NCBI RefSeq assembly: GCF_014637725.1
Contig: NZ_BMFC01000001.1
Coordinates: forward strand, 746,632-810,631
Length of the DNA stretch: 64,000 bases
Origin: Marivita lacus
Lineage (GTDB): Bacteria; Pseudomonadota; Alphaproteobacteria; Rhodobacterales; Rhodobacteraceae
Direction of reading: 5' to 3'
Each line of letters begins with the position of its first letter. Position 1 is the first letter of the stretch. Position numbers and translations under genes: made by a program. Positions 48,637 to 58,307 of this stretch are shown here, piece by piece. The notes beneath the pieces are model-generated. The model was not told where the DNA came from, ran no database searches, and was given only the letters and a program-made list of their open reading frames with translations.

Positions 48637-48763
48637 CGAGGGTCAGGATTCATCACCAGTAGAAAACGATAAAAGCGAGGGCGATGGCTGAATGGAAGAC
48701 TTGGGGACAGCGTGTAGCCACGTGCTGCCAGTCCTTGAGTCTGCCGTCTTGATGCCGTCGCAT
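48637..48763 (-). mobile_element. Relic of an IS5-family insertion sequence (terminal repeat plus transposase C-terminus)
   Basis: On the minus strand a 36-codon frame (48763-48653) ends DGRLKDWQHVATRCPQVFHSAIALAFIVFYW and stop, which matches the C-terminus of IS5-type DDE transposases (FGRLKDWRRVATRYDRCPK.F.SAIALA pattern). Some internal residues expected between RRH and GRLKDW are missing. GAGGGTCAGGATTCATCACC (48638-48657) resembles the IS end of this family. No left end or catalytic part remains before the ABC gene at 48918. The 154 bases from 48764 hold no gene I can support and may contain more decayed IS sequence. Confidence 0.75.
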
Positions 48764-48917
48764 GAAAGCTTGTCACCATCGCCAACGCGCTATGCAAATC
48801 ATGGAAAAAGTGGTCCCCTCATCGCGCTTGAGAAATTCAGTTGCTAAGTTGCGCCAAGGGTTAGTCTTGCAAGGAAACCGGTTCCAGAAAGTTCAGCCGA
48901 GAAAGGTCCGCACTGAC

Positions 48918-49952
48918 ATGTCGATAACGCTCACTGATTTGAGAAAGTCGTTTTCAGGCAAGCCGGCGGTGAACGGGATCGACATCGACATCGCACCAGG
49001 GGAGTTCTTTGCCATTGTCGGCGCGTCGGGTTGTGGCAAATCCACGCTTCTGCGCCTGATCGCAGGTCTGGAGGTTGCGGATGCGGGGGAGATTGCGCTG
49101 GGTGGCAAGCAGGTCAGCGGCCCGGGCCTGCATCTGCCGTCAGAAGCGCGGGGCGTGGGGTTCGTGTTCCAGTCCTACGCGCTCTGGCCGCATCTTGACG
49201 TGCGGGGCAACGTGGCCTTTCCGCTGGAGGCGGCCGGGCTTCGGGCGGTCGAGGCAGCACGTCGGGCCGAACGTCATCTGACCACCGTTGCGCTGGAGCA
49301 CTACGCTTCGCGCAAACCGGCGGAGCTGTCCGGCGGCCAACGCCAGCGCGTGGCCCTTGCGAGATGCCTCGCTCAAGATGCGGGGATCATCCTCATGGAC
49401 GAACCCTTGGCCAATCTCGATCCGCATCTGCGCGCCACGATGGAGGAAGAGCTTGTCGCCTTTCACCGCGCGGCGGCGGCCACCACGGTCTACATTACCC
49501 ATGACCAGCGCGAGGCGATGGCGGTCGCCGACCGGATGGCGGTGATGGCGGCGGGCCGGTTCCTGCAAGTGGGTGCGCCCGACGAGGTCTATGCGCGACC
49601 TGCCTCGGCCGAGGTCGCGCGATTCATCGGCGAAGGCGTGGTGCACCCTGTCACCGTGACAGATGGTGTTGTGTCTTTGGCCGGGCAACCGGTGCCTGTG
49701 CAGGGGGAGGGTGGGGCAGACGGGCCGCGACTGGCATTGTTCCGGCCCAAGGATCTGGTCGTCACGGCGCACGGAGAGGGGGGCGCGCTGACTGGGCGTG
49801 TTACGGCGGTGCTTTATCGCGGCGGCTATTGGGAGGCGAAACTGGCGGTCGATGGCCTCACTGAACCCTTCCTTCTGCACCTGCCGCGGCGCGCGCAAGT
49901 GGGCGATGAATTGGCTTTGTGTGTTTCGGATGGCTGGCTCTTGCCCGAATGA
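48918..49952 (+). CDS. ABC transporter ATP-binding protein, iron/spermidine (FbpC/PotA) type
   Basis: This 344-residue ATPase has Walker A GASGCGKSTLLRLIAGL, signature LSGGQRQRVALARCLA, Walker B GIILMDEPLANLD and the switch His in VYITHDQREAMAVADRMAVM. A C-terminal TOBE-like domain follows residue 240. It powers the uptake system whose permease and binding protein lie on the opposite strand immediately downstream; the two genes converge with a five-base gap. ATG 48918 is the family start (MSITLTDLRKSFSG); an in-frame extension to 48762 covers degraded IS sequence. Confidence 0.93.
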   Translation: MSITLTDLRKSFSGKPAVNGIDIDIAPGEFFAIVGASGCGKSTLLRLIAGLEVADAGEIALGGKQVSGPGLHLPSEARGVGFVFQSYALWPHLDVRGNVAFPLEAAGLRAVEAARRAERHLTTVALEHYASRKPAELSGGQRQRVALARCLAQDAGIILMDEPLANLDPHLRATMEEELVAFHRAAAATTVYITHDQREAMAVADRMAVMAAGRFLQVGAPDEVYARPASAEVARFIGEGVVHPVTVTDGVVSLAGQPVPVQGEGGADGPRLALFRPKDLVVTAHGEGGALTGRVTAVLYRGGYWEAKLAVDGLTEPFLLHLPRRAQVGDELALCVSDGWLLPE

Positions 49953-49956
49953 CGGA

Positions 49957-51666
49957 TCACAGCCGCCAGGGCACAACGCCGGGCGGCAGGCGGCGGCCAA
50001 AGAGGTCGAGCAGCACCATGAGACACACCGTGGCCAGCACCGTGACCCCGGCCATCGCTGCGGCCAGCGTCGTGTAGCCGCCGTTTTCGTAGTTGTAGAT
50101 CACGGTGCCGATGGTTTCGGTCCCGGTAGACCACAGCAAGGCGGACACCGTGACCTCGTTGTAGGCCGTTAGAAAGACAAGAATCGCGCCCGAAGCCGTA
50201 GCAGGGGCGACAAGCGGCAGGTACACCCGGCGCATACGCAGTCCCCAGTTTGCGCCTGAGACCCGCGCAGCCTCGTCCAGCGCCGGATCGAGTTGCAGGC
50301 AGGCGGCAGAAACCGGTTTCAGCGCCACTGCAAAAAAGGCGCACAGATAGGCCAGCACGATGATCCAGAGTGTGTTGTAGAGTGACACGTCGAGGATCGG
50401 TAGCGGCTTCAGGAAAGTCAGGATAAAGGCAATGGAAATGACGATGCTGGGGATTGCGTATGTGATCTCGGCCAGCGCGGTCAGCCCGATCCCGACCCGC
50501 CGGCGCGCATTGTGCGACACGGCGGACAGCCGCGCCAGGATCGTTGCCAGCCCCGCCAAAACCAGCGCCGCCAGACCTGCGGCAATCGTTGAGTTGGCAA
50601 AGGCGCGCAGCGTCACGGACTGGCGCAACAGGACCTGTTCGAAATTGGCCAATGTCATGGTCTCGAAGGTCAGGGGCAAGCCGTAGGTGATCACCAGCGC
50701 GGTGCCGAACAGCGAAGCCATCGGCAGGGCCAGCGTGACCGCCACCAACAGGACCATCCCCGCTTCGGCAAGCCATCGCAGGCGGCCAAGTTCAAGATGC
50801 AAGGGCGGCTGCGGTGGGCCGATCAGGGCGGACCGGCTGCGCGCCGACAGCATCATCTGCACGGCAATCACGACAATGGCGATCAGCGCCATGAGGGCCG
50901 AGAGAACCGCGACATCTGCCAGCATCGTGGGACCGAAACTCGACAGTCGTTGCCAGATCAGCACCGGCAGGGTTGTATAGCGCCCCGGAATGCCCAGCAG
51001 CGCCGGGATGCCGAAATTTCCCAGAGCCGACACAAAAGCCAGCGCGTAAGCGGCCAGCAGGCTAGGTGCCAGCAATGGTAGAATGACCCTGCCGAGCAAT
51101 CGGATCGGACCAGCGCCTGCAACCCGAGCGGCCTCGGCCATCTCGCGGGGCAGAGTGCGCAGCGCAGCGAGCACGACAAGGAACACCAAGGGCATGTGCT
51201 GCACGGCGAGAAGCGCAATAACGCCCTCCTTGCCATAAAGCGGGTGCGGTGTGCCGGGGGGTGGGGCAAGGCCCAAGGCCCCAAGGAGTGGCGAAGACGG
51301 TCCCAAAGCCTGTGTCCAAGCAATCGCTGTCACATGTGGCGGCACCATCATCGGGATCAGCACGAGGAAGGTAAAGACCGCCTTGCCGCGCAGTGTCGTC
51401 AGCCCAACCAGCAACGCCACACCAACACCCACAATCAACGATAATACTGCGGAAATGGCGGCACTTTCCAGCGAGTTCCACAAGGCGCGCGTGACCGAGC
51501 GGCTGTCAAGCGCGTTGCGGATCGGATCCAGTGTCGGCACCCCGTCGGCCATCAGTCCGGTCTGCAGAAGCAGCGCCATAGGTGCCAACATCAGCACCCC
51601 GGCAAAAACAACGAGGGCGGCAAGGGTCACCCCTTCACCGCCCCCTGAAAATCTCGTCAGTCTCAA
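49957..51666 (-). CDS. ABC transporter permease, fused two-domain FbpB type
   Basis: A 569-residue inner membrane protein with about twelve helices in two homologous binding-protein-dependent permease halves (roughly 15-270 and 290-560). The EAA-like loops are EMAEAARVAGAGPIRLLGRVILPLLAPS in the first half and PALDEAARVSGANWGLRMRRVYLPLVAPATASG in the second. Such fused permeases occur in ferric-iron and 2-aminoethylphosphonate uptake systems. It follows the binding protein gene by six bases. Confidence 0.93.
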   Translation of the reverse strand: MRLTRFSGGGEGVTLAALVVFAGVLMLAPMALLLQTGLMADGVPTLDPIRNALDSRSVTRALWNSLESAAISAVLSLIVGVGVALLVGLTTLRGKAVFTFLVLIPMMVPPHVTAIAWTQALGPSSPLLGALGLAPPPGTPHPLYGKEGVIALLAVQHMPLVFLVVLAALRTLPREMAEAARVAGAGPIRLLGRVILPLLAPSLLAAYALAFVSALGNFGIPALLGIPGRYTTLPVLIWQRLSSFGPTMLADVAVLSALMALIAIVVIAVQMMLSARSRSALIGPPQPPLHLELGRLRWLAEAGMVLLVAVTLALPMASLFGTALVITYGLPLTFETMTLANFEQVLLRQSVTLRAFANSTIAAGLAALVLAGLATILARLSAVSHNARRRVGIGLTALAEITYAIPSIVISIAFILTFLKPLPILDVSLYNTLWIIVLAYLCAFFAVALKPVSAACLQLDPALDEAARVSGANWGLRMRRVYLPLVAPATASGAILVFLTAYNEVTVSALLWSTGTETIGTVIYNYENGGYTTLAAAMAGVTVLATVCLMVLLDLFGRRLPPGVVPWRL

Positions 51667-51672
51667 AAGGGC

Positions 51673-52659
51673 TCAGCCGCCGAAGATTTCGACAAACCGC
51701 AGGCGGTCCTGCTCTGCGCTGTCCAAAGCGGTTGCCGGATCGAACTCCAGAAGCTTGATCGTGTCGAGCGCCGGGAAGCCTGCGGGCGGGGTAATCGCCG
51801 GATGTGCAGGCATGTAGCCCATGTCTGCAGCCAATTGCTGACCTTCAGGTGAGATCAGAAAATCGATAAAGGCTTGCGCTGCAGGCACGTTCTGGGCTGT
51901 CGACAGAATCGCTGCCGGTTCGGTCACAGCCGAGACGCCTTCTTTCGGGAAGACGAAGCCCACAGGCGCACCGTTGGGGATTTCGCGGATCGGCAGGAAA
52001 TCGACGACCATGCCGAACAACTGCTCACCTCCGGCGACAGCGCGGTAGACGCCACCATTGCCACCCTGCGGGTTGGTACCCTGCTCGGCCAGGCCTTCGT
52101 AAAAGTTCCAGCCAAGGTCCGGATGCGAGGTCAGCGACACCATGTGGATGGTGGCCGCACCCGATGTAAGCGGTGACGGCATGACGATTTGGCCCTGCGC
52201 TTCGGGGCGCAACAGGTCAGCCCAGCTTTCGGGCACGAAGGGTGCGGATGTGTTGTAGACGATGCCGGTGGTGATCAGCTTGGTCGAGAAGTAGTAGCCT
52301 TCGAGATTCATGATCGCTGGGTCATAGGCAGATACATCGGCGCCTTCGTAGGCGAGCAGACGGCCTTGCGCCTCCAGCCCTTCCATCGTGACCATGTCGG
52401 CGATGAGGAGCACGTCCGGCTGCGGAGCGACCGCTGCGAACTCGGCTTCGAGACGTGCCATGACCTGCGTGGTGCCGTCGCGAATCCAGTCGACCTCGAC
52501 ATTCGGGTACACTTCGTTGAACGCATCAACGGTGCGCTGTGCGTCTTCGTTGGGCTGCGAGGTGTAAAGAACCAGACGGCCGGAGACGTCAGTGTTCTGC
52601 GCAAAGGCGGGTCCGGAAACGGCGAGTGCCGCGACGGTTGCGATAAGTGTGCGGTACAT
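51673..52659 (-). CDS. ABC transporter substrate-binding protein, ferric-iron/phosphonate (FbpA) type
   Basis: The periplasmic binding protein has 328 residues with a signal peptide ending AVSGPAFA. The pattern RLVLYTSQPNEDAQRTVDAFNEVYPNVEVDW is typical of family-1 iron or phosphonate binding proteins. The double Tyr of FbpA-type iron coordination is not evident at the expected C-terminal position, so I do not assert iron as substrate. ATG 52659 has AGGGGAAAAG upstream. It is first in the operon with the fused permease; the ATPase gene is convergent. Confidence 0.9.
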   Translation of the reverse strand: MYRTLIATVAALAVSGPAFAQNTDVSGRLVLYTSQPNEDAQRTVDAFNEVYPNVEVDWIRDGTTQVMARLEAEFAAVAPQPDVLLIADMVTMEGLEAQGRLLAYEGADVSAYDPAIMNLEGYYFSTKLITTGIVYNTSAPFVPESWADLLRPEAQGQIVMPSPLTSGAATIHMVSLTSHPDLGWNFYEGLAEQGTNPQGGNGGVYRAVAGGEQLFGMVVDFLPIREIPNGAPVGFVFPKEGVSAVTEPAAILSTAQNVPAAQAFIDFLISPEGQQLAADMGYMPAHPAITPPAGFPALDTIKLLEFDPATALDSAEQDRLRFVEIFGG

Positions 52660-52722
52660 GTCTTTTCCCCTGATGTTGGAGTGCAAATCCTTGGGTGATC
52701 AGCACCACGCGCTTAGCGGTTG

Positions 52723-52739: not shown

Positions 52740-52789
52740 ACCCGGTCAGGAACAAGCCCGGGTCGACATCGCCAACCCGACTGTCGAGT

Positions 52790-52816
52790 GCGGCCGCGCC
52801 TCTGCGTGGCCGCTTT
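52790..52816 (+). terminator. Stem-loop before the ugpA remnant (likely former ugpB-ugpA intercistronic hairpin)
   Basis: GCGGCCGCG and CGTGGCCGC form a stem with one mismatch around CCTCTG, followed by TTTC, 27 bases before the remnant start codon. Such a hairpin usually stands between the binding protein gene and the first permease gene of sugar ABC operons. Its presence without a ugpB supports loss of the upstream gene. Confidence 0.5.
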
Positions 52817-52842
52817 CGAATCAAGCAATTGGAGATAACGCG

Positions 52843-52983
52843 ATGAAACGCGCAGGTTTTGTGAACCGTTGGCTTCCGACCTTGCTGCTCTTGCCGCAGC
52901 TTGTCGTGATCGCGGTCTTCTTCTACTGACCCGCCGTCCATGCGCTGCGCTTCTTCAACCCGGAAACGGGACGCGCTATTTGA
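52843..52983 (+). pseudogene. ugpA-ugpC deletion scar (glycerol-3-phosphate-type ABC transporter)
   Basis: ATG 52843 has a good ribosome binding site (TTGGAGA) and starts MKRAGFVNRWLPTLLLLPQL, the N-terminus of UgpA-type permeases. After 28 codons the conserved Trp of FFYWPA is a TGA stop. The frame continues PAVHAL and then LRFFNPETGRAI and stop, which matches the C-terminus of UgpC-type ATPases (LHLFD..TGRRI), not UgpA. The simplest reading is a deletion from about codon 34 of ugpA to the last dozen codons of ugpC, removing ugpE entirely. A full UgpA has about 290 residues. It is non-functional. Confidence 0.75.
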
Positions 52984-52998
52984 TCATCGCGCCTGCGA

Positions 52999-53199
52999 TC
53001 AGGTGGCGTGGTCCTGCATCCATTTGATCAGGTTGGACGGGGTTGTTCCGGAACACTGCGAAGGTTTGATCTCGGGGCGGTGTTTCAGCGGCAGCCGCAA
53101 GGGCTTTGGGCGCGATCTGTTTGCGTCTGTGCACCACACGCAGACCACTTGGCCGGATTCGTCAGTTTCTGCGATGTAAAGGATGTTGTCGGTCTTCAT
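52999..53199 (-). CDS. Small hypothetical protein (66 aa)
   Basis: A soluble protein starting MKTDNILYIAETDESGQVVCVW and ending SNLIKWMQDHAT. It looks like a compact beta-rich N-terminus followed by a basic Pro-rich stretch; no known domain is recognised. It lies between the ugp scar and the TIM-barrel gene. The AAAAAGCG before the ATG is a poor ribosome binding site, so expression is uncertain. Confidence 0.45.
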   Translation of the reverse strand: MKTDNILYIAETDESGQVVCVWCTDANRSRPKPLRLPLKHRPEIKPSQCSGTTPSNLIKWMQDHAT

Positions 53200-54189: not shown

Positions 54190-55020
54190 TTATTTGATGC
54201 CCGCGCGCATGAAGCTTTGCACGAATTGGCGTTGAAACAGAAGAAATCCTACAAGAAGCGGAGCAGAGGTGATGAGCGTCGCCGCCGTGATGGTCGACCA
54301 CTCGATGCCGCTATCTGTGGTCGCAAAGATCGACAGACCCACGGTCAGCGGCCGTGTCTCGACCGAAGAGGTCACGATCAACGGCCAGACAAAGTTGTTC
54401 CAATGGTGGCTGACCGAGACCAGCGCGAAGGCAAGGATCGTGGGTTTGGCGAGCGGCACGTAGACCCGCCAGATCAACCCCAAAAGCGTGACACCTTCGA
54501 CACGGGCTGCATCGTCCAACTCCTTGGGAATGGTCTTGAACGTCTGGCGCAGCAGGAAAATCGCGAAGGCGGATGCGAAATAGGGCAAGCCAATCGCAAG
54601 GATTGTGTCGAGCAGACCCAGACTCGCAACAGTTGCGTAATTGCGCACCAGCAGGATATCGGGCGTGACCATCAGCTGCAAAAGCACAAGCGCGAACAGG
54701 ATGCTCTTTCCCGGAAACTCCAGCCGCGCAAAGGCAAAGGCCGCATGGATACACAGCAAAAGCTGTGCGCCCAGAACCAAGCTGACCAGAAGGACGGTGT
54801 TCAGCAGGTAGCGACCGAACGGGGCGGCATTCCACGCGCCCACAAAATTCTCGACCGTCAGCGGTGCCAAGGGATCGAACCGCGTGACGAATGCGGGCGG
54901 GTGGATCGCAGACCAGATGGCCCATGCCAGCGGCAGCACCCAGATAAGCGCCAGCACCCACGCGCCCGTCACGAACAGAGCGCGGTCGACCCGCGAGGTA
55001 TCTGTGACCATGACGCTCAT
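54190..55020 (-). CDS. Carbohydrate/glycerol-phosphate ABC permease (UgpE/MalG type)
   Basis: The product of 276 residues has six membrane helices and the EAA loop KELDDAARVEGVTLLGLIWRVYVPLAKPTI. It is the second permease half of the operon. ATG 55020 overlaps the stop of the preceding permease by four bases. A longer frame reaching 56031 reads through the other permease out of frame. Confidence 0.92.
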   Translation of the reverse strand: MSVMVTDTSRVDRALFVTGAWVLALIWVLPLAWAIWSAIHPPAFVTRFDPLAPLTVENFVGAWNAAPFGRYLLNTVLLVSLVLGAQLLLCIHAAFAFARLEFPGKSILFALVLLQLMVTPDILLVRNYATVASLGLLDTILAIGLPYFASAFAIFLLRQTFKTIPKELDDAARVEGVTLLGLIWRVYVPLAKPTILAFALVSVSHHWNNFVWPLIVTSSVETRPLTVGLSIFATTDSGIEWSTITAATLITSAPLLVGFLLFQRQFVQSFMRAGIK

Positions 55021-55886
55021 TTGTAATGGATCCGACGGTCCATGAGAAAGAACTGGCCCAGTCCCACGATGGCCAAGATGGCCACCATCACCACGGTCAG
55101 TGTGGCCGCGTAGGCCGTGTCCCAGAACCGGAAACCGATCTCGTAGATGTAGTAAAGCAACAGCATTGACGCGTTGTTCGGCCCGCCTTGGGTCATCACA
55201 AAAATATGGTCCACCGTCCGGAAGGCATTGATGGTTGCATTGACCGACAGGAACAATGTGGTCGGCATCAACAAAGGCCATGTCACCCTGCGAAAGAACG
55301 TCCAGCGCGACGTACCTTCCAGCGCCGCCGCTTCGCGCAGGCTGTCGGGAATGTTTTGAAGGGCGGCAAGGTAGAAGATCATGAAAAAGCCTGCCTGGCT
55401 CCAGACAGACACCACCGTGACGGCATAAAGCGCCGTTGCGGGCTGACCGATCCAGTTTTGCGGACTCAGCCCGAGAGCCTCGCGAATTTGCTCGAAAAGG
55501 CCAAAGCCCGGCAGAAAAAAGAACACCCAGATGTTGGCGACCGCGATCAGTGGCAGCACCGTGGGCGTGAAATAGGACATCCGCAGAAACGCGCGGCCCG
55601 CAATGCGTCCCTGCACGAAGATCGCCATGGCAAGGGCAAGCGCGATGGAAGCCGGAATGGTCAGAGCCGCGTAAACCGCGTTGTTGCTCATTGCCTTCAG
55701 AAAGATCGGATCGGCCAGCATCCGGCGATAATTCGCGTCCCCCACGAATACCGAGGGGCGACGACCGCGCGGGGTCGACCAGAAGCTGTCGATCACGGTC
55801 TGGATCGCGGGCATGTGGGTGAAGGCAAACAGCAGCACCATCGCTGGCAAAAGCAGAAGTGCAGCATGACCCCAGTCTCGGTGCAT
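55017..55886 (-). CDS. Carbohydrate/glycerol-phosphate ABC permease (UgpA/MalF type)
   Basis: A 289-residue inner membrane permease with six helices and the EAA-like loop LREAAALEGTSRWTFFRRVTWPLLMPTT. The N-terminus HRDWGHAALLLLPAMVLLFAFTHMPAIQTVIDSFW is typical. It lies 65 bp downstream of the binding protein gene with a stem-loop between, and overlaps the second permease gene by four bases. Confidence 0.92.
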   Translation of the reverse strand: MHRDWGHAALLLLPAMVLLFAFTHMPAIQTVIDSFWSTPRGRRPSVFVGDANYRRMLADPIFLKAMSNNAVYAALTIPASIALALAMAIFVQGRIAGRAFLRMSYFTPTVLPLIAVANIWVFFFLPGFGLFEQIREALGLSPQNWIGQPATALYAVTVVSVWSQAGFFMIFYLAALQNIPDSLREAAALEGTSRWTFFRRVTWPLLMPTTLFLSVNATINAFRTVDHIFVMTQGGPNNASMLLLYYIYEIGFRFWDTAYAATLTVVMVAILAIVGLGQFFLMDRRIHYK

Positions 55887-55906
55887 TTATTTGTCCTTGA
55901 ACGAAA

Positions 55907-55928
55907 GACGGCCCAAGTCTGGGCCGCC
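55907..55928. terminator. Intercistronic stem-loop between binding protein and permease genes
   Basis: GACGGCCCAAG and CTGGGCCGCC pair imperfectly. On the minus strand it follows the binding-protein stop by 24 bases and is followed only by CTTTCG, so it likely attenuates or stabilises the 3' end of the abundant binding-protein message. A seven-base T run follows on the plus strand, where no gene runs into it. Confidence 0.55.
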
Positions 55929-55951
55929 TTTTTTTGGTGAAGATACGAGGG

Positions 55952-57235
55952 TTAACGATAGGCTGACAGAATGGCGTCTGCCGCTGCCTGCGCATCGGCC
56001 ATTGCCTGTGCCGGTGTCTTGTCACCAACAATCGCTGCCGCGATATTGTCGTTGATGATCTGCGTCACCTGCGGACCCTGGTAGGTCGACAGTTCCGGAA
56101 CCGCGTATTCCAGCTGATCACGCGCAACCAGCGCACCGGGAACCTCTTGTGCGTAGGCCTGCATCATCTCGGTCTCCCAAGTGTCTGCGCGAGGCGCGAC
56201 ATAGCCTGTGTCGATCGACCATTGCGCGGCCTGTGCGGGTTCTGTGGCCCAACGGACGAAATCGACAGCCGCCTGAAGCTGTTCAGGGGTGGAGCCATCG
56301 AACAGGTAGAAGTTGCCGCCACCTGTCGGCGCACCGCGGCGTTCCTTGGCGGGCAACATCGCGACACCGAAATCGAACGGAGCATTCGTGCGGATGTTGG
56401 TCAGGTTGCCCGTGGTTGTCCAAGCGATGGCGGTCTGACCGTCCATGAAGGCGCGCGGGGTTGCGCCCCAATCAAGGATACCCGGCTCCATGATGCCGTG
56501 ATCGCGCGACAGGGACACCAGGTAATCGAGCGCTTCGACAACGGCGGGCGTGTCGAAGTAGACCTCGGTGCCGGCATCATTCGCCAGACCGTCCTGACCG
56601 TTCGACGCAACCAGCCCCGTAAAGAGCCAGGACGGGAAACCAGAGGACGGGATCCGCACGCCCCATTGTGTCACGGTTCCGCTGGCATCGGTCACCGTCA
56701 GGGTCTTGCCCATCTCGACCAGTTCGTCCCAGGTGGCGGGCGGAGCTTCGGGGTCAAGGCCAGCCGCAGCAAAGGCTTCCTTGTTGTAATACATCACCGG
56801 TGTGGAGCGCTGGAACGGGATGCCCCAGGTCTTTCCGTCGGTCTGGCTGTTGCGCATGAACGAGTCAAAAAAGCCGCCGAAGAACGCGTCCTGCTCGGCT
56901 TCGGGAATGAAATCGTCCCATGGCAGGATCATTTCTTCGTCGAGCAGTGCGAAGAGGTCGACCGACAGGAGGATCGCAAGCTGCGGCGCGTTGCCACCGC
57001 GTGACGCGGTGATTGCGCGTGTGGTCGTGTCGGCATAGCTGCCACTATAGACCGCGTTGATCGTGACGTCGGGCGTTTGCGCCATGTAGTCATCGGTCAT
57101 TTTCTGGATGATCTCGGCCGCGCCACCACCAACGGCAACGGGGAAATAGAACTCCAGTTCAACGGCCTGCGCAGCAGAGCCCAGTGTCAGGGCAACCGCG
57201 CAGGTCGATGCGGCAAGTCGAAGTCGTTCAAGCAT
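55952..57235 (-). CDS. Extracellular solute-binding protein, UgpB-like
   Basis: The binding protein has 427 residues with a signal peptide ending GSAAQA. The mature part resembles UgpB: VYSGSYADTTTRAI near residue 65, WGIPFQRSTPVMYYNKEAFAAAGLDPEAPPATWDEL near 145, and NLTNIRTNAPFDFGVAMLPAKERRGAPTGGGNFYLF near 280. UgpB of E. coli binds sn-glycerol-3-phosphate and glycerophosphocholine. A glycerophospho-compound is the likely ligand here, backed by the candidate Pho box at 58354. It overlaps the ATPase gene by eight bases. Confidence 0.88.
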   Translation of the reverse strand: MLERLRLAASTCAVALTLGSAAQAVELEFYFPVAVGGGAAEIIQKMTDDYMAQTPDVTINAVYSGSYADTTTRAITASRGGNAPQLAILLSVDLFALLDEEMILPWDDFIPEAEQDAFFGGFFDSFMRNSQTDGKTWGIPFQRSTPVMYYNKEAFAAAGLDPEAPPATWDELVEMGKTLTVTDASGTVTQWGVRIPSSGFPSWLFTGLVASNGQDGLANDAGTEVYFDTPAVVEALDYLVSLSRDHGIMEPGILDWGATPRAFMDGQTAIAWTTTGNLTNIRTNAPFDFGVAMLPAKERRGAPTGGGNFYLFDGSTPEQLQAAVDFVRWATEPAQAAQWSIDTGYVAPRADTWETEMMQAYAQEVPGALVARDQLEYAVPELSTYQGPQVTQIINDNIAAAIVGDKTPAQAMADAQAAADAILSAYR

Positions 57236-58307
57236 GGGAAGGCTCCTTGAGGGGGGAAAGAAGAGCTGAAAGGCGCAGGCCATCAGGCCCGAAGACATGC
57301 TCGGCGCTGTCTGGCCATGCCAAGGCATGGCCGTCCGCCGGCAAGGCATGGCGCGCAGGAACACGCACCAGAACACGCACCCGGTGATCGTCGGGTCCGA
57401 TCTCGAAGGCGGCCAGTTGATCGGCGCCAAGATATTCCACGCCCACCAGCCGGGCAGGCAGGCCCTTTGGATCAAGCACGATGTCCTCTGGACGGATTCC
57501 CACCATGCCACCTTCTGGCAGCGCGCCGGGTTCGGCGAGGCAGGCGACCGGAATCAGGTTCATGGGCGGTGTGCCGATGAACCGGGCCACAAAGGTATTC
57601 GCGGGGTTTTCATAGAGATCACGCGGGCTTGCCACTTGCTGCACCCGACCCTGATTCATGACCACGATATGATCCGCCATTGTCATCGCCTCGACCTGAT
57701 CATGGGTGACATAGACCATCGTCAGGCCCAGCCTCTGTTGCAGCGCCCTGATTTCGACGCGCATCTCGGCGCGCAGTTTGGCATCGAGGTTCGAAAGAGG
57801 CTCGTCCATCAGGCAAATCGGACGATCCGAGATGACGGCACGCGCCAGTGCGACACGCTGCTGCTGACCGCCAGAAAGCTGCGCAGGACGCCGCGCAAGA
57901 AGGTCGGTCAATCCCATCATCGACGCGACCCGGTCGAGCCGCGCCTGCTGCTCTGCGCGGGCCACGCGGCGCACCGACAGGCCGAACAGGATATTTTCGG
58001 CCACGCTCAGATGCGGAAACAGCGCGTAGGATTGGAATACCATCGACAGGTTGCGCTGCGATGGGGGCAACGCGGTGATTTCGGTTTGATCGACGTAAAT
58101 CTGCCCGGCGGTCGGCGTGTCCAGCCCGGCAATCAGCCGCAAAAGTGTTGATTTCCCGCAGCCGGATGGACCAAGGAGAACCGAAAATCGACCCGATGGC
58201 AGGTTTACGGACACATCGTCCAACGCGGTGGATGTCTCGAAACGGCGTTGAAGCCCACGCAGCGTGATGCCGCCTGCAGAATGCGTGGGCGAAGACGTGA
58301 TGTGCAT
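57228..58307 (-). CDS. ABC transporter ATP-binding protein, UgpC/MalK type
   Basis: A 359-residue ATPase with Walker A GPSGCGKSTLLRLIAGL, signature LSGGQQQRVALARAV, Walker B CLMDEPLSNLDAKLR, H-loop VYVTHDQVEAMTMAD, and a C-terminal TOBE/regulatory domain (GIRPEDIVLDPKG). It is the first gene of the operon ATPase-binding protein-two permeases-TIM barrel; in E. coli the ATPase comes last (ugpBAEC). The C-terminal end lacks the LHLFD.TG tail found in UgpC. A Pho-box candidate stands 47 bp upstream of the start. Confidence 0.93.
   Translation of the reverse strand: MHITSSPTHSAGGITLRGLQRRFETSTALDDVSVNLPSGRFSVLLGPSGCGKSTLLRLIAGLDTPTAGQIYVDQTEITALPPSQRNLSMVFQSYALFPHLSVAENILFGLSVRRVARAEQQARLDRVASMMGLTDLLARRPAQLSGGQQQRVALARAVISDRPICLMDEPLSNLDAKLRAEMRVEIRALQQRLGLTMVYVTHDQVEAMTMADHIVVMNQGRVQQVASPRDLYENPANTFVARFIGTPPMNLIPVACLAEPGALPEGGMVGIRPEDIVLDPKGLPARLVGVEYLGADQLAAFEIGPDDHRVRVLVRVPARHALPADGHALAWPDSAEHVFGPDGLRLSALLSPLKEPSHA

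Follow-up and report, generated by a model that had tools for sequence, protein, structure and literature searches.

The ugpBAEC operon encodes an sn-glycerol-3-phosphate ABC importer of the CUT1 family. Nine residues that contact glycerol phosphate are named for the Phaeobacter UgpB protein in PMC12718374, which also describes GpxB, another glycerol-phosphate transporter of Phaeobacter sp. MED193, with a PhnD-type binding protein of the PhnT family. Prokaryotic pseudogenes have been surveyed in PMC522871. We analysed a window of 64,000 nucleotides from Marivita lacus (the whole stretch under study, to which all positions refer unless a contig is named). The plus strand of this window from 52843 to 52983 translates to MKRAGFVNRWLPTLLLLPQLVVIAVFFY*PAVHALRFFNPETGRAI* (asterisks, stop codons), with 46 codons ahead of the final stop, an internal TGA among them. 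This 46-codon frame is very probably a scar without function, left by an ABC transporter operon of the ugpBAEC type in which the start of ugpA was joined to the tail of ugpC.

A DNA search of the same genome (G000; 4.77 Mb in 65 contigs) returned a single other match to the scar DNA. This match is on contig C21, has 78% identity over window positions 52787-52954 (~170 bp; E = 1e-29) and spans the ugpB-ugpA hairpin and the start of ugpA. The C21 operon is intact and contains ugpB, ugpA, ugpE and ugpC in that order, followed by a gene of the endonuclease/exonuclease/phosphatase family (the phosphoesterase gene). Because its UgpC scores above the corresponding NCBIfam cut-off (520.1 bits versus 432), its UgpA, although best matched to UgpA, lies below the equivalog cut-off (298.5 bits versus 335), and the solved structures closest to its UgpB are UgpB proteins, we refer to the C21 operon as ugp-type. 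The C21 UgpB (L008:353-1654) retains seven of the nine contact residues given for the Phaeobacter protein in PMC12718374; Glu88 is replaced by Asp and the clamp residue Trp188 by His. Numbering was carried over with an offset of 20, the sole offset of seven tried that fits all nine named residues. Given the two altered residues, this ugp subtype may prefer another substrate. The distance from the ugpA start to the ugpC stop is 2862 bases on C21 versus 141 in the scar; the 2721 bases (~2.7 kb) that are gone are a multiple of three.

Searching the C21 operon proteins against window positions 44-60 kb placed residues 1-35 of UgpA at 52843-52947 with 82.9% identity (E = 3.6e-8) and residues 336-348 of UgpC at 52942-52980 with 69% identity (E = 0.17 by itself). 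The two matches adjoin and share one frame, with the UgpA N-terminus at the 5' end and the UgpC C-terminus in frame at the 3' end. As the UgpC half is short, it was tested separately. The alignment score of the C21 ugpC end to the scar was 18, and none of 5000 random 44-mers drawn from window positions 50-58 kb reached this score (maximum 13; draws less than 200 bases from the scar, ~5%, were skipped unscored). When 12 kb of C21 was cut into 100-bp tiles and both strands were scored, the ugpC end was also the best site for the scar tail (18 versus 13 for the runner-up). An intergenic stretch that resembles UgpA and UgpC by chance would be conceivable if the UgpC match stood alone, with its 13 residues and its high E value, but the E value of 1e-29 for ugpA plus hairpin and the outcome of the 44-mer control leave this explanation a negligible probability. 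Thus, both ends of the frame are what a sequence-only reading of this DNA had taken them to be. An intact homologue exists, and the scar has an internal TGA and missing parts, the combination that characterizes a deletion pseudogene. Since the scar is known from a single genome, an error of sequencing or assembly, for example at the TGA, may be present. The features of the locus are collected in Table 1.

Table 1. Remnants in the scar and the genes that border it, in window coordinates
Feature	Position	Strand	Evidence
Substrate-binding protein gene of the PhnS2-like/iron-type ABC operon, left neighbour	51673-52656	-	Pfam SBP_bac_6 and SBP_bac_11; phnS2 match below its cut-off
Intercistronic hairpin, formerly between ugpB and ugpA	52784-52819 (core stem 52790-52813)	+	Core stem identical to the C21 hairpin
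GGAG, putative RBS of the former ugpA	52831-52834	+	Direct reading, 8 bases 5' of the ATG
ugpA remnant, codons 1-35, with TGA at 52927-52929	52843-52947	+	C21 UgpA protein match and DNA match over 52787-52954
Join region, 8-bp word GCGCTGCG, fits both parents	52942-52949	+	Word in the C21 ugpC end and the G029 ugpA start
ugpC remnant, last 13 codons and stop	52942-52983	+	C21 UgpC residues 336-348 and 44-mer control
Small gene of 66 codons, right border of the scar	52999-53199	-	58% identical frame in same-genus genome G010

The position of the internal TGA is occupied by Trp in 26 of 31 related UgpA loci and by Tyr in the other five, and the frame is open in all 31, one of which is a short locus open over just 133 codons. 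A search of 394 genomes gave 46 non-self match rows, and 30 of these (C21 included) are among the loci compared, together with one from a search of 61 genomes; of the 16 other rows, the G417 contig C1 locus was retrieved and resembles ugp over 24 bases only. The proposal that TGA had replaced a conserved Trp therefore stands for the nonsense codon and for a position that is mostly Trp, although the Tyr residues show that Trp is not universal there.

The nearest relative of the scar over codons 1-34 of ugpA is C21, with 82% identity versus 72-77% for seven operons in other genera. The scar and C21 differ at 18 of these 102 sites, distributed as 3, 3 and 12 over the three codon positions (binomial P = 0.004 against one third). 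Because of this excess at third positions, much of the divergence between the two bears the signature of functional genes, on one branch or on both, and much of it would have arisen before the copy died or along the C21 branch. At 51 columns invariant in eight intact genes the scar departs at three, the stop included, compared with 0 to 2 departures in each intact gene. We found no support for the suggestion that nonsense decay came later than the deletion.

The retained RBS and ATG are followed by 28 open codons, and these codons differ from C21 at 3, 2 and 10 sites by codon position, as they might if they were still translated into a membrane microprotein with a single pass, the former first transmembrane helix of UgpA. 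However, the codon-position pattern may have arisen before the deletion or along the C21 branch, the number of sigma-70-like promoter sites was 0 (0.3 expected), and the frame is known from one genome only. We therefore regard translation of this peptide as highly improbable. The same low standing is given to the proposal that a translated 28-residue membrane peptide, left behind by the deletion, has come to act on the cell's intact Ugp-type transporter.

The RBS and the hairpin upstream of the frame survive, as the sequence-only reading had stated. The stem of the scar hairpin equals that of the C21 ugpB-ugpA hairpin (L008:1667-1708) letter for letter, and the loops differ. Its RNA fold has a z score of -2.9, equalled by 2 of 200 shuffles. 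A scan for the hairpin as a dispersed repeat found a single site within the window. Nineteen upstream regions were then compared, namely those of the scar, of C21 and of 17 more ugpB-ugpA intergenic regions, the last two groups being 18 of the 31 UgpA loci picked for being closest in subtype. In 17 of the 19, the region 5' of ugpA contains a stem of at least 10 bp that has no interruption and a loop of 3-8 bases, and the remaining two have stems of 7 and 4 bp. For these two, equally long stems arose in 45 and 295 of 300 first-order resampled controls, compared with 0 to 6 of 300 for the other 17. The letters of the hairpin vary between genera and its pairing is retained. As pairing is kept despite letter changes, the hairpin looks like a conserved part of this ugp operon type, in which it probably serves as an element for processing or differential expression. 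On the 5' side of the scar, the order ugpB-hairpin-ugpA is represented by the hairpin; left of it no ugpB remnant was found beyond chance, the candidate being matched equally well by 1672 of 3000 random stretches.

The join itself can be compared with several intact operons. The C21 ugpC has GCGCTGCG at the place homologous to the scar join, the ugpA of G029 reads CATGCGCTGCGCT, the same as the scar, and in G417 the ugpA and ugpC sites both contain the 10-bp word ATGCGGTGCA. Because none of the intact operons examined has the 8-bp word at both sites, and the longest common word there in C21 is just 5 bp, we can only infer a deletion between short direct repeats; this comparison leaves out G420, in which ugpC is in two frames, and G298, in which a longer tail did not line up. 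The join may have been produced by recombination or replication slippage between direct repeats of ~8 bp in ugpA and ugpC, an event that, with C21 as the measure, would have removed ~2.7 kb. The copy may have been dispensable since a related operon stayed in the genome.

A single in-frame deletion, as originally proposed, explains the internal gap but not the absence of ugpB and of the phosphoesterase gene. The latter gene lies 3' of ugpC on C21 and in six of seven other inspected operons of the same subtype. A search for its remnant in window positions 44-60 kb returned nothing better than E = 0.62, and elsewhere in the genome there was one distant weak match (E = 8e-4). As both genes are gone without trace, the history requires more than one event, and the two genes would have been lost through further events or would never have arrived. 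In one other operon (L077; G420 contig C286) ugpC and the phosphoesterase gene are each split into two pieces in overlapping frames; this locus may be another decaying ugp operon, or may contain assembly errors.

Transporter operons lie on both sides of the scar. To the right, 15 bases separate the scar stop codon from the end of the 66-codon small gene, which has no Pfam match. Its G010 counterpart is on contig C8 in a different context, and weaker relatives occur in four more of 293 genomes searched. Beyond this gene, the operon at 54190-58307 had been described as an intact Ugp-like operon 1 kb away. All three subunits tested score below their NCBIfam cut-offs (UgpA, 120 versus 335 bits; UgpE, 121.7 versus 297; UgpC, 365.5 versus 432), and the operon adjoins an isomerase-like gene; its appearance is that of an ABC transporter of the sugar type. 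The intact ugp-type operon most similar to the scar is on another contig, C21. Replacement of an ancestral system by a Ugp-like neighbour was considered and is unsupported, given these three scores.

To the left, the operon at 48762-52686 resembles PhnS2/PhnU2/PhnT2 with scores below the cut-offs, and the best solved matches to its binding protein are iron-type and similar structures. The binding protein and a fused permease are encoded on one strand, with the ATPase gene convergent on the opposite strand, and this unusual layout is retained in ~70 of 80 loci (L097-L173). Among 11 PDB matches of the binding protein at E = 1e-10, none has the name GpxB. PhnD-type proteins belong to a Pfam family other than SBP_bac_6 and SBP_bac_11. 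The possibility that the left operon is a replacement by GpxB, as that transporter is described in PMC12718374, is judged unlikely, as the binding protein matches other families; by these family matches, the left operon is probably not GpxB.

In 15 of the 17 genomes sampled from the genus, there is a UgpA match with an E value no higher than 1e-40. All 19 of these matches besides C21, including a second one in the M. lacus genome on contig C10, are 44-50% identical, and within this sample the scar/C21 ugp subtype occurs in the M. lacus genome only. The scar was recognised in no other genome of the sets of 61, 394 and 389 that were searched; these sets overlap and include the genome itself, and up to 12 candidates per genome were scored in the first and up to two in the others. 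A 24-base stretch of G417 contig C1 (876973-876996; L081) equals the scar at 24 of 24 bases around the ATG (E = 3e-5; one genome of 394). It was rejected as a second scar as its surroundings are devoid of ugp protein similarity, and the identity is probably due to chance.

An intact ugpBAEC operon at this position in a relative would have pointed to an ancestral system at the site. No operon of the scar/C21 subtype is within reach in 80 loci that were fetched by their copy of the left-flank gene, the one for the binding protein (80 out of 110 retained relatives, some ending at contig ends), and none is at the scar position in 14 sugar-operon, isomerase or left-flank loci. With these results and a neighbour below the Ugp cut-offs, the idea that an ancestral system was replaced at the site found no support. 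Ugp-type operons of another subtype are less than 10 kb from the left-flank gene, non-adjoining, in two of the 80 loci. One is in Rhodovulum sp. 12E13 (L112; 37-52% identical to C21) and the other in Marivita genome G010 (L125; 40-50%), where it is past the ATPase gene on the opposite side. In a Lutimaribacter-labelled MAG (L108) the sugar-type and PhnS2-like operons are ordered and oriented as in the window, and the ~3.6 kb that separates the two contains other frames but nothing that matches ugp. One of eight sugar-operon loci (G426; L073) has an other-subtype ugp operon (42-57%) that adjoins the sugar-type operon on the same strand. No viral or phage carrier was found, and a plasmid search returned a single record, from a Ruegeria plasmid on which an ABC permease gene is annotated.

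As the transporter modules are found in varied company, decay in place and arrival of a fragment are both tenable. A full operon may never have been at this site; the fragment, fused or truncated beforehand, would then have come as a passenger with one of the neighbouring transporter cassettes. This account agrees that the frame is a deletion scar and differs in where the deletion took place. The variable contexts of both neighbouring operons, the failure to find the subtype here in any relative and the traceless absence of ugpB and the downstream gene are consistent with it. However, the same ugpA-ugpC deletion would still be needed elsewhere, and the fused fragment was recognised in no other genome in searches that scored few candidates per genome and in which all but 15 weak rows were checked. 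We consider arrival as a passenger unlikely, though well ahead of the microprotein. The scar is most likely a second, acquired or duplicated ugp copy that decayed.

The scar thus represents a known kind of event, ordinary genome decay. A transporter operon of four genes can be reduced to ~200 bp and remain recognisable given an intact copy for comparison, and the scar marks a transporter-rich region where, in marine bacteria of the Roseobacter group, uptake systems appear to be gained and lost. Compared with ugpBAEC, the hairpin, the ugpA start and the ugpC end of the scar match the intact C21 operon, whereas the scar keeps ~140 coding bases with an internal stop and is without UgpB, UgpE and most of UgpA and UgpC. 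Like the prokaryotic deletion pseudogenes surveyed in PMC522871, it is a truncated, fused and nonsense-bearing remnant, possibly of horizontally acquired genes; it differs in that its endpoints are in two genes of one operon and its fusion is in frame.
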